Origin: Raoultibacter massiliensis
Lineage (GTDB): Bacteria; Actinomycetota; Coriobacteriia; Coriobacteriales; Eggerthellaceae
Length of the DNA stretch: 33,353 nucleotides
Assembly (NCBI RefSeq): GCF_900199545.1
Contig: NZ_LT962671.1
Coordinates: 1,420,399 to 1,453,751, forward strand
Reading direction: 5' to 3'
A program made the translations under genes and the position numbers. Below are positions 16,387 through 20,301 of the stretch, piece after piece. How positions within the stretch are numbered: position 1 is the stretch's first letter; each line of letters starts with the position of its first letter. Below the pieces are notes generated by a model. The model was given only the letters and a program-made list of their open reading frames with translations. It was not told the DNA's origin and did not search any database.

Positions 16387-17201
16387 CGCGCACCTCCTGC
16401 GGATACGGCTCCCTCGCCGCCTCCGAAAGAACCGGCCGCCGTTTCGGCGCCCTCGGAAACGGACGCTTCCGCTACTTCGGTGCCCTCGGGCCTTTCAGCC
16501 GATCGGGCGCACGGCAAAGCGCCCCCGGCGTTCTCGCTGTACGAAAGCGAGCCCGCTTTGAGCTCGAAGGTTCCTGCAGCGAACCCGTCAGCGGCGCGAT
16601 GGCGAATGCGCAGACACGTCATACCCGTACCGACGAGCGTCGCGGCAAGCCGTCCGATCGCGCAAGCGGAATCGGCGTCGAGCGCCGCATCGACCTCATC
16701 GAGCAGCAATACCGCAGGTTTGGCAGCGAAAGCGCGCAACAGTGCGATACGGGCAAGCTGTCCGCCCGAAAGCTGCGAGACGTCGCGCTCGAGCTCAACG
16801 TCGCCGAGCTCGGCCTTCGCGAGCAGATCGGCGAGCTCGCCGTCGCGCGGTGCGCTCTCGTCTGCGCGAACCTTCAGCGTCCATGGAAGCACGAGGTTAT
16901 CGCGCACCGTACCGGATACGAGCGAGGGCTTCTGGGGAACCAGGCAGACGCGTTTGCGCCACTGGGTCACCGGCATATCGCTGCTCGATTCGCCTCCAAG
17001 ATACAAGCGTCCGCTTTCACGCTCGATCATGAGGGCACACGCGCGAAGAAGCGTCGACTTGCCCGAGCCGGAAGGACCGACAAGATCGTAGATGGTCGCC
17101 TCGTCAAGGGCGAAGCCCAACCCTGCGAAGAGCCTCGCGCGCCCGGAAGCACGCGGGTACGACACGGTCATGTCTTCGACGCGAAACAGAGCGGCGGTCA
17201 C
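16383..17201 (-). CDS. fetA: FetA-like ABC transporter ATP-binding protein
   Basis: An ABC ATPase with Walker A GPSGSGKST (42-50), Q-loop near VPQKPS, signature LSGGQ (144-148), Walker B AVLLLDEVDAAL (Asp168-Glu169) and a switch His (His201). The GTG at 17201 is chosen because it overlaps the stop of the small upstream gene (GTGA) and an AGGCGG lies 5 nt before it. A longer in-frame reading to 17456 would run through that gene. The protein has 272 residues, of which the last about 50 (from about 222) are a Gly/Ala/Glu-rich tail not seen in E. coli FetA. It pairs with fetB downstream (ATGA overlap). Confidence 0.88.
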   Translation of the reverse strand: MTAALFRVEDMTVSYPRASGRARLFAGLGFALDEATIYDLVGPSGSGKSTLLRACALMIERESGRLYLGGESSSDMPVTQWRKRVCLVPQKPSLVSGTVRDNLVLPWTLKVRADESAPRDGELADLLAKAELGDVELERDVSQLSGGQLARIALLRAFAAKPAVLLLDEVDAALDADSACAIGRLAATLVGTGMTCLRIRHRAADGFAAGTFELKAGSLSYSENAGGALPCARSAERPEGTEVAEASVSEGAETAAGSFGGGEGAVSAGGAR

Positions 17202-17476
17202 CTCTGCCGCCTGTTCCACCACCACGCCCCTATGAGAAGCGCGCAGAATACGATATCGGCAAAAGCAGCCGTTGACGCCGCCATCGGCCCACCCCTTCCG
17301 CAGCTCTCCGAAATCAATGAAGGTCTTGTCTGCAAAGACAGTATAGCGACGGGCAAAACGAGAAGCCAGATGCCGAGAGCAAACGGTACGGCCCCGTTGC
17401 CTGCGAGTCGGCCCGCTTTCGGCCGGCGCGACCGCCATCGCGTGCCATGTGCACATTTATTGCCAGATTCATACAT
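17198..17476 (-). CDS. Small two-helix membrane protein before fetA
   Basis: A 92-residue frame not assigned to any family. It shows a basic N-terminus (RWRSRRPKAGR), a first hydrophobic helix (AVPFALGIWLLVLPVAILSL) and a second (ADIVFCALLIGAWWW) ending NRRQR. Its stop overlaps the fetA GTG by 4 bp (GTGA), the same coupling as fetA-fetB, and this is the best evidence that it is real. The start is uncertain. The ATG at 17476 lies within an 18-bp repeat and has no clear ribosome site. It may be an accessory subunit of the FetAB exporter; this is inference from position only. Confidence 0.5.
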   Translation of the reverse strand: MYESGNKCAHGTRWRSRRPKAGRLAGNGAVPFALGIWLLVLPVAILSLQTRPSLISESCGRGGPMAASTAAFADIVFCALLIGAWWWNRRQR

Positions 17477-17624
17477 TTCGAACGACGTCGGAGATCCCCT
17501 TCGCGCCCGTTTCCGCCCCGCAAAACGCCTGCGTTATTCGCGAACTGGGAAAACGGTCCGCATCGTGCGCAATGCAAGGGCTCGGGAACGCTCCCGAACC
17601 CCCTGGATGTATGAATCTGGCAAT
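17459..17624. repeat. 18-bp inverted repeat pair
   Basis: ATGTATGAATCTGGCAAT occurs exactly on the minus strand at 17476-17459 and on the plus strand at 17607-17624. In both copies it is followed, after 4 nt, by GTGCA. The copies face away from each other across 130 bp. No function is recognised: it could be a pair of regulator sites, a dispersed repeat, or the ends of a small non-autonomous element. Confidence 0.6.
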
Positions 17625-17669
17625 TTTCGTGCAAATCGCAGGCTTTTCGCTTCCGCACCTGGTTGTTTC

Positions 17670-17705
17670 GTCGGCCTGCCGCAGAATGACCCGCGGCAGG
17701 CCGAC
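17670..17705 (-). terminator. Hairpin downstream of trpB
   Basis: A perfect 13-bp stem (17670-17682 and 17693-17705) with a 10-nt loop, 5 bp after the trpB stop. On the minus strand it is followed by GAAACAACC rather than a T-run. It is probably a terminator by position. Confidence 0.55.
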
Positions 17706-17709
17706 GGAT

Positions 17710-19095
17710 CTACTGCACCCCGGGGATGCTCGGGATGGAAGCGAACCCCACCTCGAGTTCCTCATCGGTGGGAATATGGTCGGTCATCTCGCCTCGGTTG
17801 TACGCATCGTAGGCCACCATGTCGAAGTAGCCGGTGCCCGTGAGTCCGAAGAGGATCGTCTTTTCCTCCCCCGTCTCGGCGCAGCGCTTGGCCTCCTCCA
17901 TAGCCTGGAAGATCGCATGTGCGCTCTCTGGTGCGGGAAGGATGGTTTCAAGGCGGGCGAATTCGACCGCTGCGGCGAAGATGTCGGTCTGCTTCACGGC
18001 AACCGCATCGAGGTAACCGTCTGCTTTGAGCTTCGAGACGATCGGGCTCATGCCATGGTAGCGCAGGCCTCCCGCATGGTCGGGGCTTGGAAGAAAACCG
18101 CTGCCGAGCGTGTACATTTTAGCGAGCGGACACGTCTTGCCCGTGTCGGCGAAATCGTAGGCGTAGCGGCCACGCGTAAGCGACGGGCAGCTCGCGGGCT
18201 CGACGGCGATGAACCGCGTATCGGGATGGATGCCTTTGATCTTGTCTCGCATGAACGGCGCGATCAGGCCGCCGAGGTTCGAACCGCCGCCCGCGCATCC
18301 GATCACGATGTCGGGGTACTCGCCGAGCTCCTTGAACGCCTCGTACGATTCGAGCCCGATGATGCTCTGGTGGAGCACCACCTGGTTCAGAACGGAGCCG
18401 AGCGTGTAGCGTCCTTTGTTTTCGGGCACGTTGAGCGCCCGCTCGACCGCTTCCGAGATGGCGGTGCCGAGCGACCCGGAAGAATCGGGGTTCTCGGCGA
18501 GCATCTTCTTGCCGATCTCGGTGGTATCGGAAGGCGACGGCGTCACGTTGGCGCTGAACGTTTCCATGATGTTGCGACGGAAGGGCTTCTGCTCGTAGGA
18601 GCACTTCACCATGAACACATCGAGGTTGAGCCCGAAGTGGTCGGCCGCCTCTGCGAGTGCAGTGCCCCACTGGCCCGCCCCGGTCTCGGTCGTGATATCG
18701 GTGAGCTCTTGCGCCTTTGCATAATAAGCCTGGGCGATAGCCGAGTTGAGCTTGTGCGAGCCGCTCGTGTTGTTGCCCTCGAACTTGTAGTAGATCTTGG
18801 CCGGCGTGCCAAGCGCGCGCTCGAGGTTGTAGGCGCGGCACAGCGGCGAGGGCCGATAGATCTTGTACATTTCCCGCACGGGTTCGGGGATGTCGTAGTA
18901 GGCCGTCTCATCGTCGAGCTCCTGGCGCACGAGTTCGTCGCAGAAGACCGGCGCGAGCTGCTCGGGCTCGGCGATCTCCCCGTTCGGGAGGCGGATGGGA
19001 TCGGGCGGCTCGGGCATGTCGGCGCGCAGGTTGTACCACTGCGTCGGAATCTGATCTTCTTTGAGGTACAGACGGTGCGGCACTGCGTTTTCCAT
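17710..19095 (-). CDS. trpB: TrpB2-type tryptophan synthase beta-like PLP enzyme
   Basis: TrpB condenses indole with serine to form tryptophan using PLP. This 461-residue protein belongs to the longer TrpB2 type. It has an extended N-terminus (QIPTQWYNLRADMPEPPDP), RPSPLCRAYNLE, the PLP lysine in NNTSGSHKLNSA (Lys115), ETGAGQWGTALA and the phosphate loop CAGGGSNLGG. The ATG at 19095 follows AAAGGAA; an ATG seven codons upstream has no ribosome site. No trpA or other trp gene is adjacent, in keeping with TrpB2 enzymes, which often act without TrpA on free indole and may salvage indole. The leader carries a complete Trp-codon attenuator, which directly ties expression to tryptophan supply. It is one of the best-supported regulatory assignments in the window. 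Confidence 0.93.
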   Translation of the reverse strand: MENAVPHRLYLKEDQIPTQWYNLRADMPEPPDPIRLPNGEIAEPEQLAPVFCDELVRQELDDETAYYDIPEPVREMYKIYRPSPLCRAYNLERALGTPAKIYYKFEGNNTSGSHKLNSAIAQAYYAKAQELTDITTETGAGQWGTALAEAADHFGLNLDVFMVKCSYEQKPFRRNIMETFSANVTPSPSDTTEIGKKMLAENPDSSGSLGTAISEAVERALNVPENKGRYTLGSVLNQVVLHQSIIGLESYEAFKELGEYPDIVIGCAGGGSNLGGLIAPFMRDKIKGIHPDTRFIAVEPASCPSLTRGRYAYDFADTGKTCPLAKMYTLGSGFLPSPDHAGGLRYHGMSPIVSKLKADGYLDAVAVKQTDIFAAAVEFARLETILPAPESAHAIFQAMEEAKRCAETGEEKTILFGLTGTGYFDMVAYDAYNRGEMTDHIPTDEELEVGFASIPSIPGVQ

Positions 19096-19196
19096 TGCGG
19101 TTCCTTTCTCTTTCAACTCTTGCGTACCTGCGCTTCGGTTTCGGCCTTGCGCGCCCGCTCGCCTGCTTCGTTTCGAGTTCAGCTTCGGCTTTCGGG

Positions 19197-19264
19197 CAAC
19201 AAAAAAGCTCCCGGATCACCGAGAGCTGTTCGTTTTTGTATGTAAGCGAGAACAGAAGCTGTCG
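19197..19264 (-). promoter_or_regulatory. trp attenuator: terminator and competing antiterminator
   Basis: Minus-strand terminator: AGCTCTCGG (19227-19219), loop TGAT, CCGGGAGCT (19214-19206), then TTTTTT. Antiterminator: CTGTTC (19255-19250) pairs with GAACAG (19231-19226), extended after a bulge by CGACAG (19264-19259) with CTCTCG inside the terminator arm. A third pairing, GAACGGAA (19290-19283, just after the Trp codons) with TTCTGTTC (19257-19250), would block the antiterminator when the leader is not stalled. This is the classical 1:2 / 2:3 / 3:4 layout. It lies 48 nt after the leader stop and about 110 nt before the trpB start. Confidence 0.88.
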
Positions 19265-19274
19265 ATAACCCGAA

Positions 19275-19361
19275 TTATTGCGTTCCGTTCCACCACCAAG
19301 CACAGTTCATAGACGCGCTCTGCGCGTTCATCATGAAGCTGTTGTTCTTGGCCTGGTACAT
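19275..19361 (-). CDS. trpL: trp leader peptide with three consecutive Trp codons
   Basis: A 28-codon frame from the ATG at 19361, with AAAGG 5 nt before it, ending NCAWWWNGTQ and TAA at 19275. The three TGG codons are at 19298-19290. Internal in-frame ATGs exist at 19334, 19331 and 19310, but the first has the ribosome site. Ribosome stalling at the Trp codons when charged tRNA-Trp is low would mask the segment 19290-19283, free 19257-19250 and let the antiterminator form. The peptide itself probably has no function. It opens the trpB transcript. Confidence 0.88.
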   Translation of the reverse strand: MYQAKNNSFMMNAQSASMNCAWWWNGTQ

Positions 19362-19387
19362 GCGAACCTTTCATTCGGGTTGGGGCT

Positions 19388-19415
19388 AGTATACACAACT
19401 TTCCGATAAGCGCAA
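19388..19415 (-). promoter_or_regulatory. Promoter of trpL-trpB
   Basis: On the minus strand TTGCGC (19415-19410), 16 bp and TATACT (19393-19388). The start site would fall near 19380, about 20 nt before the leader-peptide ATG. Confidence 0.6.
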
Positions 19416-19543
19416 GCAACATTCCATCCGATATGCATCGCTTCCAGTCGGTCGGCTTGCCGAACGAGCCGGGCGATCGCGGTTTTTTCGAACCATGCGC
19501 CCCATGGAGTCGAGAAGCTCCGGCAAAGCCATCAACCTTCCTC

Positions 19544-19589
19544 TTTACAAAGCTAGCATTTGCTAGTATTGTGGCTAGCGAACGCTAGC
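19544..19589 (+). promoter_or_regulatory. Promoter with two palindromic operators for the tetR operon
   Basis: TTTACA (19544-19549), 17 bp and TATTGT (19567-19572). The palindrome CTAGCA-TT-TGCTAG (19553-19566) fills the spacer. A second, GCTAGCG-AA-CGCTAGC (19574-19589), covers the start-site region. The centres are 22 bp apart, two helical turns, so two TetR dimers could sit on the same face and block the polymerase. Confidence 0.7.
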
Positions 19590-19671
19590 TTGAACTCGCC
19601 GCTGGCATCGGCGCCCACGGCGATTGCAGAGACGCGCGATGCCGCCCAAAATCCGCAAAAGGAGACGCTTC

Positions 19672-20301
19672 ATGCGAAAGGAACGCTCCCGTGATACAAA
19701 AACCGTCATTCTCGACGAGGCCATGCGGCTTTTCTCGGAACAGGGATTCCGAGCCACGACCGTACGCGACATCGCCGCAGCCGTCGGGATAAAAGATGCA
19801 TCGCTGTACAGCCACTACCCCAGCAAGCAGGCGATATTCGATTCCATTATCGAACGGGCGCTCGAGAGCATGGGCGAAGGGTTTCGGAGCCGAGGGGCCC
19901 TGTTCCTCACGACCGACGATGCGAGCGGCTACGGCAGCATCCCCTTCGACCAGTTGCGCGAGAAGGTGCTCGCAACGTTCGAGTTTCTTTTCTGCGATCC
20001 GTATATGGTGCGCCTGCGCAAGCTGCTCGTGATCAATCAGTTCGAAAACCAGCAGACGACGCGCGCCTACCGCCTCATTTTCGCCGAACAGCCCATCAGG
20101 CTGCAGGAAACCGTTTTCGCCTACTTGATGGGAACCGGGGAGTTCGATCGGGCCGACGCCCATCTTCTCGCCCTTGAATTCTACGGGCCCGTGTTCCTCA
20201 TGCTGCACGATGGGACGTCATGGGATCTAGCCCGACCCCTGATCGAAGCGCATCTCGAATCGTTCTACCTCTCGCACGCAACCGCAAAGGAGCTTCCATG
20301 A
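19672..20301 (+). CDS. TetR/AcrR-family transcriptional regulator
   Basis: A 209-residue TetR-type repressor with the N-terminal helix-turn-helix (RDTKTVILDEAMRLFSEQGF, then TVRDIAAAVGIKDASLYSHY and PSKQAIFDSI, within about 7-57) and a helical ligand-binding C-domain. The ATG at 19672 follows AAAAGGAGA; upstream in-frame starts have no ribosome site. Its stop overlaps the flavodoxin start (ATGA), so regulator and flavodoxin are co-translated. The double CTAGC palindromes in its promoter point to autorepression relieved by an unknown ligand. The ligand cannot be told from the sequence. Confidence 0.93.
   Translation: MRKERSRDTKTVILDEAMRLFSEQGFRATTVRDIAAAVGIKDASLYSHYPSKQAIFDSIIERALESMGEGFRSRGALFLTTDDASGYGSIPFDQLREKVLATFEFLFCDPYMVRLRKLLVINQFENQQTTRAYRLIFAEQPIRLQETVFAYLMGTGEFDRADAHLLALEFYGPVFLMLHDGTSWDLARPLIEAHLESFYLSHATAKELP

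Follow-up and report, generated by a model that had tools for sequence, protein, structure and literature searches.

In E. coli trpL, strand 1 of the attenuator overlaps the Trp codons and is masked by a stalled ribosome. T-box RNAs bind tRNA directly, sense its charging, and end in a terminator decision, while TnaC-like control operates by nascent-peptide sensing. Among actinobacteria, tryptophan attenuators are known for the trp operons of Corynebacterium and Streptomyces, for C. diphtheriae trpB2A, and for S. avermitilis trpS2 (PMC1262725, in the part of the article available); neither Coriobacter nor Atopobium is mentioned in the main text of that article. A T-box before a trpB-like gene is known in Dehalococcoides (PMC2494555, available part), and exchange between T-boxes and leader peptides is known before orthologous genes, at hisS and other genes (PMC2965389, available part). 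Indole salvage by gut Bifidobacterium is also known, with TrpB implicated (PMC11085991, available part). For Coriobacteria, we found no earlier report in the open-licence literature, which was covered mostly by title and the start of the abstract.

Here we describe a leader upstream of trpB2 in Raoultibacter massiliensis. The window, meaning the whole stretch of DNA analyzed, is 33,353 nucleotides long (contig NZ_LT962671.1, positions 1,420,399 to 1,453,751). Its sequence and the comparison with related genomes indicate that this leader is very probably a ribosome-mediated transcription attenuator that controls trpB2 by tRNA-Trp charging. Other genomes and loci are referred to by our own G and L numbers, respectively.

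A leader with three consecutive Trp codons precedes trpB2

The features of the leader and of trpB2 are as follows.

19393-19388, minus strand: -10 promoter element TATACT (read from the sequence)
19381-19373, minus strand: strand 1, AACCCGAAT, at the RNA 5′ end, before the leader ORF and its Shine-Dalgarno sequence; complementary to 19275-19267
19371-19367, minus strand: Shine-Dalgarno sequence AAAGG of the leader ORF (read from the sequence)
19361-19275, minus strand: leader ORF of 28 codons, ATG at 19361, encoding MYQAKNNSFMMNAQSASMNCAWWWNGTQ, TAA ending at 19275 (from the sequence and the homologous leaders)
19298-19290, minus strand: three consecutive UGG (Trp) codons, TGGTGGTGG (from the sequence and a count in the window)
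19274-19256, minus strand: strand 2, TTCGGGTTATCGACAGCTT, abutting the leader stop codon; pairs with 19228-19210 or, by its 5′ part, with strand 1
19228-19210, minus strand: strand 3, CAGCTCTCGGTGATCCGGG, 5′ arm and loop of the terminator and antiterminator partner of strand 2
19227-19201, minus strand: intrinsic terminator (3:4), stem 19227-19206 and then six U to 19201
19095-17710, minus strand: trpB2, encoding a TrpB-like PLP enzyme (TIGR01415 and NF009057 above cut-off)

A first-pass annotation of this DNA had proposed a classical tryptophan attenuator, comprising a promoter, a 28-codon peptide with three consecutive Trp codons, mutually exclusive 1:2, 2:3, and 3:4 pairings, and a U6 terminator. 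The peptide, its UGG run, and the terminator can be read directly from the sequence, and all three helices were located there. The window has two copies of TGGTGGTGG, where 0.10 would be expected, and none of 100 shuffles reached two. The 1:2 helix consists of nine perfect pairs between 19381-19373 and 19275-19267 and encloses the entire leader ORF, the 2:3 helix joins 19274-19256 to 19228-19210, and the 3:4 helix is the terminator. The end of the U6 run (19201) lies 105 bases from the trpB2 start (19095). Folding of the leader RNA (19390-19190), which had been suggested as a check, was better than that of 200 out of 200 dinucleotide shuffles (z = -3.67). An Rfam scan of 18900-19700 returned neither Trp_leader nor T-box (RF00230), and its single match was a chance one to another family. 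While attenuation itself is supported by these features, the word "classical" is not fully apt: strand 1 does not lie at the Trp codons but 75 bases ahead of them, at the RNA 5′ end.

Of the features proposed, the promoter has the least support. The -10 element that had been claimed is present, but the -35 element (TTGCGC, 19415-19410, minus strand) is weak, and a consensus promoter scan did not list the site. Among the 56 homologous leaders analyzed, 24 have a match to a relaxed -10 pattern 5′ of the chosen start. The transcript would be expected to start near 19381, which would make strand 1 its 5′ end.

The trpB2 product passes the cut-off of the TrpB-like profile TIGR01415 (557 bits; cut-off, 518.85) and fails that of the canonical trpB profile TIGR00263 (129.7 bits; cut-off, 392.45). 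By sequence, its nearest solved chains are 6hul_B (beta chain 1 by name) and 4qys_B and 6hte_B (both beta chain 2 by name). Among the relatives listed, it is 93% identical to the TrpB2 of G167 and 84 to 85% identical to those of Paraeggerthella, Slackia, and an Eggerthellaceae isolate. Such an enzyme would make Trp from serine and indole. The gene had been annotated as a lone TrpB2 with no trpA beside it. The TIGR01415 type stands, as does the lack of trpA in the window, where the best tblastn match had an E value of 0.48 (five queries, one of which, L278, was in the wrong frame); "lone" is less accurate, in that a fetA-like gene comes after trpB2 in five relatives. At the trpB2 stop codon of the window there is a 21-base inverted repeat (86%; 17662-17713) that forms a strong hairpin without a T run. 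The trpB2 gene of L267 (G092) contains one in-frame TAA in the assembly.

Relatives carry either a Trp leader or a T-box before trpB2

A scan of genome contigs gave the best 80 trpB2 loci, 16 of them in Coriobacteriia, and a class-wide search of 396 genomes found trpB2 at E values up to 1e-60 in 191. The upstream regions that we read number 111, made up of 30 loci, 80 regions fetched from among the matches listed, and the window; outside them are 14 matches of more than 60% identity (several partial and at contig ends) and all matches from 56% identity down.

A WW(W) leader precedes trpB2 in 60 of these 111 coriobacterial regions. The 60 comprise 53 WWW leaders found by script, five WW leaders picked by hand (67 candidates in all), and the leaders of L098 and L092. 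The analyzed set, after removal of one identical row and of one row missed by the script pattern, was 56 leaders. The distance from the start codon to WWW is 54 to 66 bases in 53 of the 56, a descriptive figure given that the selection rule favored 60 bases and a Shine-Dalgarno sequence. All 56 have a predicted terminator hairpin downstream of the leader. Because its end was located by searching for T-rich tails, the presence of a tail is in part built into the procedure, and in L135 the tail is poor. The leader peptides differ among relatives except around AWWW. Between the window and G167, the trpB2 leaders differ by 2 synonymous and 10 nonsynonymous codons, and the residues before AWWW are not conserved, a free variation that is expected if only the Trp codons matter. 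In L092 and L215 (G102), the leader (WWW in L215) is displaced from trpB2 by about 1.4 kb, with a transposase-like ORF in between.

Comparison of homologous leaders had been named in the first-pass annotation as the means of checking the attenuator, and it came out in favor, since the Trp codons recur in more than half of the regions and the stems show compensatory changes (next section). The same annotation held that the model would fail if relatives kept trpB but lost the Trp codons. Taken literally, such a loss is seen in 51 of the 111 regions. In 38 of them, however, a T-box takes the place of the leader, which argues for replacement of the regulator and not for its loss. Seven scanned regions (L095, L100, L141, L163, L168, L175, and L183) yielded no Trp leader and no T-box, and six leaderless regions (L187 and L189 to L193) lay outside the scan. 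Rfam was run on 40 loci. Since L092 and L098 among them carry a leader, 38 leaderless loci remain, and 32 of these yielded a T-box. Five T-boxes came from six more distant loci, and one, L113, was recognized by motif only. The E values of the 32 Rfam T-boxes ran up to 3e-6, with 1 of the 32 above the gathering score. UGG stands at the specifier place in 33 of 33 coriobacterial T-boxes read, as judged by pattern, with the place matched to the Rfam alignment for L140 only. The T-box before trpB2 in many relatives thus seems to read the same tRNA, tRNA-Trp. A T-box also precedes trpB2 in 5 of 12 Firmicute loci.

A quick TrpB2 tree was made with 87 rows (44 leader, 29 T-box, 4 neither, and 10 outgroup). 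On it, five changes are needed to account for the leader label, and five are also forced by the branches with good support; for all labels together the number is seven. Of the leader rows, 41 fall in one clade, which also holds a single T-box row and two rows with neither device, and three (L009, L270, and L276) are placed among T-box rows. On this tree, the sensors have thus replaced each other several times, and the outgroups suggest that the T-box is the older state.

We also looked for trpA in these genomes. An unbroken trpA was detected in 6 of 60 leader-bearing genomes, and two of the other 54 have broken or partial pieces (drafts can miss genes). Of the T-box genomes, 15 of 29 gave an unbroken trpA, and 14 of 14 control genomes were positive. 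The association between leader type and trpA (Fisher P = 3e-5) ignores kinship and is not used here as proof. Since so few leader-bearing genomes have an unbroken trpA, salvage of indole from neighbors is a testable need, and trpB2 may serve indole salvage, which would link the leader to indole use.

The 2:3 and 3:4 helices covary

The 2:3 pairing was examined with an alignment-free swap test, which takes the best duplex between strand 2 and a terminator region. Among 39 sequences less than 95% identical to each other, pairing within the same genome averaged -26.0 kcal/mol, compared with -21.5 kcal/mol when the terminators of other genomes were used. None of 20,000 permutations was as good at n = 39, 25, or 15, and two were at n = 10. 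The genome's own terminator is the single best partner of strand 2 in only 5 of the 39, and a median of four others pair better.

Pair counts were made on 16 alignable leaders. They were limited to these because MAFFT aligned strand 2 sequences of the CCCGGGTC type with a shift of one column, and the 16 have strand 2 of the other type; Collinsella-like and Atopobiaceae-like leaders are represented in the alignment-free test only. In the 11-bp 2:3 helix, 96.0% of cells are paired, and changes on both sides affect five pairs and eight cells, each of these counts being reached in 0 of 500 shuffles. In the 9-bp 3:4 helix, 95.1% of cells are paired, and 14 cells are changed on both sides (0 of 500 shuffles); the number of 3:4 pairs changed on both sides, three, shows no excess (205 of 500 shuffles reach three). 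When the helices were slid as a control, pairing dropped to 22 to 46% for 2:3 and to 16 to 68% for 3:4. Both 2:3 and 3:4 therefore covary across these leaders.

In the corresponding test for 1:2, pairing within the same genome was -24.4 kcal/mol, versus -20.6 kcal/mol after swapping, and none of 20,000 permutations was as good (n = 32). None was at n = 22, and one was at n = 9. Since the best duplex could fall anywhere within about 120 bases, this test does not follow one homologous helix through all rows, and in L119, L085, L133, and L157 the best partner of strand 2 is instead near the Trp codons.

Full-length folding at equilibrium failed to separate the ribosome states. Even a ribosome stalled at the first Trp codon left the terminator as the favored structure in 45 of 56 leaders, and with the ribosome at the stop codon the terminator was favored in all 56. 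For the window leader, stalling lowers the probability of the terminator only to 0.31 to 0.70. We then ran a second model, in which the RNA ends 5 nt into strand 4. Here the two states were separated: strand 2 paired with strand 3 in all 56 leaders when the ribosome sat on WWW but in only 2 of the 56 when it had reached the stop codon. Pairing was called at six or more expected bases, a threshold of our own choosing. Since the terminator is favored at equilibrium even when the ribosome is stalled, antitermination would have to be kinetic.

A second WWW leader overlaps a FetA-like transporter gene

The second occurrence of a Trp-rich leader in the window lies downstream of trpB2, with these features.

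17345-17340, minus strand: -10 element TATACT of leader 2
17284-17198, minus strand: leader 2, the second WWW leader, MAASTAAFADIVFCALLIGAWWWNRRQR (from the sequence; amino acid sequence conserved)
17201-16383, minus strand: FetA-like ABC ATPase gene, GTG start at 17201 (profile matches)
16386-15592, minus strand: UPF0014/FetB-like permease gene (PF03649, 266 bits)

Leader 2 encodes a hydrophobic peptide of 28 residues, and its TGA overlaps the GTG start of the fetA-like gene. There is no terminator between leader 2 and this gene. Folding of leader 2 with the fetA start gave nothing beyond shuffles (z = -0.36; 71 of 200 shuffles as good), and we therefore claim no RNA switch for leader 2. The leader is kept in G167 and G320 and is absent directly before the gene at the other 11 fetA-like loci read. 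The window and G167 differ in it by 11 synonymous and 5 nonsynonymous codons, with 14 of 20 base changes at third positions; the counts are 9 and 2 for the window and G320 and 7 and 5 for G167 and G320. In contrast with the trpB2 leader, leader 2 thus has kept its amino acids.

Neither protein reaches the cut-offs for the FetAB exporter (FetB, 153.8 versus 410 bits for TIGR00245; FetA, 127.7 versus 292 bits for NF007601). Of 26 genomes searched, 13 yielded a fetA-like gene. The gene comes directly after trpB2, at a distance of about 35 to 90 bases, in G067, G148, G002, G186, and G267, is near trpB2 in G167, G320, G364, and G102, and is elsewhere in four genomes. This transporter thus often accompanies trpB2. 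Between trpB2 and leader 2, the window also has a 37-base inverted repeat (81%; 17440-17476 and 17607-17643) with 130 bases between its arms, which resembles a small inserted element.

A candidate ECF S component gene is preceded by T-boxes and Trp leaders

A covariance model of the trpB2 leader (R1) was built on 33 leaders; 22 of these are from genomes of the later 26-genome search, and those hits are by construction. In 24 of the 26 genomes, the trpB2 leader scored more than 60 bits with R1; those of G283 and G005 were missed. Outside the training set, it found the trpB2 leader of G320 and the displaced one of G102. G289 and G323 each gave a further new match of more than 60 bits, placed upstream of a gene for a membrane protein that we took for a candidate ECF S component. 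The loci of the candidate are the following.

L233:1500-3103: candidate ECF S component locus
L234:1500-2262: candidate ECF S component locus
L304, L286, L289, L292, L296, L298, L281, and L282: further candidate ECF S component loci

The protein encoded at L233 was tested and has no Pfam or NCBIfam match. In G289, an ATPase gene follows the candidate gene, and the best NCBIfam matches of its product are ECF ATPases, below their cut-offs. The candidate gene was found in 46 of 62 genomes. At the 30 loci read, the gene is preceded by a T-box motif in 23, by a WWW leader in 2, and by neither in 5. Rfam matched a T-box before the gene in 8 of 8 loci tested, all below the gathering score, and the specifier is UGG in all six alignments shown, including that of G167. 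We regard the protein as a candidate tryptophan transporter. G167 appears to use both sensors, a T-box at the candidate transporter gene and a leader at trpB2. In G209 (contig C13), the candidate ECF S gene is about 70 bases downstream of trpB2, so that a second transporter type is found beside trpB2. At L005:1-204, a raiA RNA scored above the Rfam gathering score.

These observations allow a joint reading, which we put forward tentatively and with less than even confidence. Two interchangeable sensors of tRNA-Trp might wire one regulon in one class of bacteria, with WWW reused translationally at leader 2, where the peptide would be under amino acid selection, and the UPF0014 transporter might be a tryptophan, indole, or aromatic transporter and not an iron exporter. 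A ribosome stalled on WWW of leader 2 would extend to about the fetA start codon, so that, if this reading is true, Trp-tRNA would gate the transporter directly. The operon and leader 2 together offer a testable guess at the substrate of an uncharacterized ABC transporter family.

Proposed mechanism and alternative explanations

Ribosome-mediated attenuation of a stand-alone TrpB2 gene, as originally proposed, remains the best-supported reading, given the many homologous leaders with compensatory changes. In the proposed mechanism, a ribosome would translate the 28-codon leader. When Trp-tRNA is plentiful, the ribosome would reach the stop codon and, because this codon abuts strand 2, would cover strand 2. 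Strand 3 would then be unpaired, the 3:4 hairpin would form, and transcription would end at U6. When Trp-tRNA is scarce, the ribosome would stall on the three UGG codons, leaving strand 2 free to pair with strand 3 before strand 4 is made, and with 2:3 formed, polymerase would continue into trpB2. If the leader is untranslated, 1:2 would sequester strand 2, and termination would be the default, as in an off lock. A ribosome on WWW would leave strand 1 exposed, so 1:2 could form in that state too, opposing 2:3.

Free tryptophan might instead cause the leader peptide itself to arrest its ribosome, and the same hairpins would then serve as the readout. Such nascent-peptide sensing would fit the recurrence of the residues AWWW(N/T) in many leaders, as well as the amino acid conservation in leader 2 and between L089 and L091 (7 synonymous and 2 nonsynonymous codons), but we consider it improbable for trpB2. 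The residues upstream of AWWW vary freely between close trpB2 leaders, as described above for the window and G167, and nonsynonymous changes outnumber synonymous ones in 11 of 14 other pairs and are fewer in 3 (raw codon counts, uncorrected for sites). Further, what relatives use in place of the leader is a T-box carrying a UGG specifier, and T-boxes respond to tRNA charging. Slightly less probable again is control of trpB2 mainly via translation of the leader, for example by Rho protection or coupling, with an incidental terminator. Leader 2, which has WWW but no space for a terminator before its fetA-like gene, is a point in favor of this explanation for the trpB2 leader as well; the hairpin predicted after all 56 trpB2 leaders and the covariation of strand 2 with it argue against it. 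A chance juxtaposition of a Trp-rich ORF with an ordinary terminator would suit consensus scans that barely exceed shuffles (four terminator-like sites in 17500-19800, within chance at 2.7 expected and a standard deviation of 1.6, and the promoter absent from the list), but it is refuted already by the WWW leaders before trpB2 in dozens of genomes and by their covarying stems, and its probability is negligible.

Comparison with known systems

With ribosome-mediated attenuation as the preferred reading, the locus can be set beside the systems described to date. It shares with E. coli trpL and the Rfam Trp_leader family the Trp codons, strands 1 to 4, and the terminator; it differs in having no Rfam match and in placing strand 1 at the 5′ end of the RNA, before the leader ORF. 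The T-box (RF00230) is found before the same gene family and has a UGG specifier in those read, but it works without a leader peptide.

The trp attenuators of other actinobacteria are alike in having a leader peptide with two to three UGG codons, a competing antiterminator, and a GC-rich terminator with a U run, whereas they precede trp operons or trpS and the attenuator described here precedes a stand-alone TrpB2-type gene (PMC1262725, available part). C. diphtheriae trpB2 is the first gene of a trpB2A operon, and its membership in TIGR01415 is not established in that article (PMC1262725, available part). The attenuator of the window would place a stand-alone, TrpA-independent Trp-forming enzyme of gut-type anaerobes under the control of tRNA-Trp charging.

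Compared with the exchange of devices of the hisS type (PMC2965389, available part), several exchanges have occurred here before trpB2 within one class, and G167 has both devices. The class thus offers a natural experiment in which orthologous trpB2 genes are under either a T-box or a leader attenuator, with at least one genome having both, and in which the two devices probably respond to one signal.
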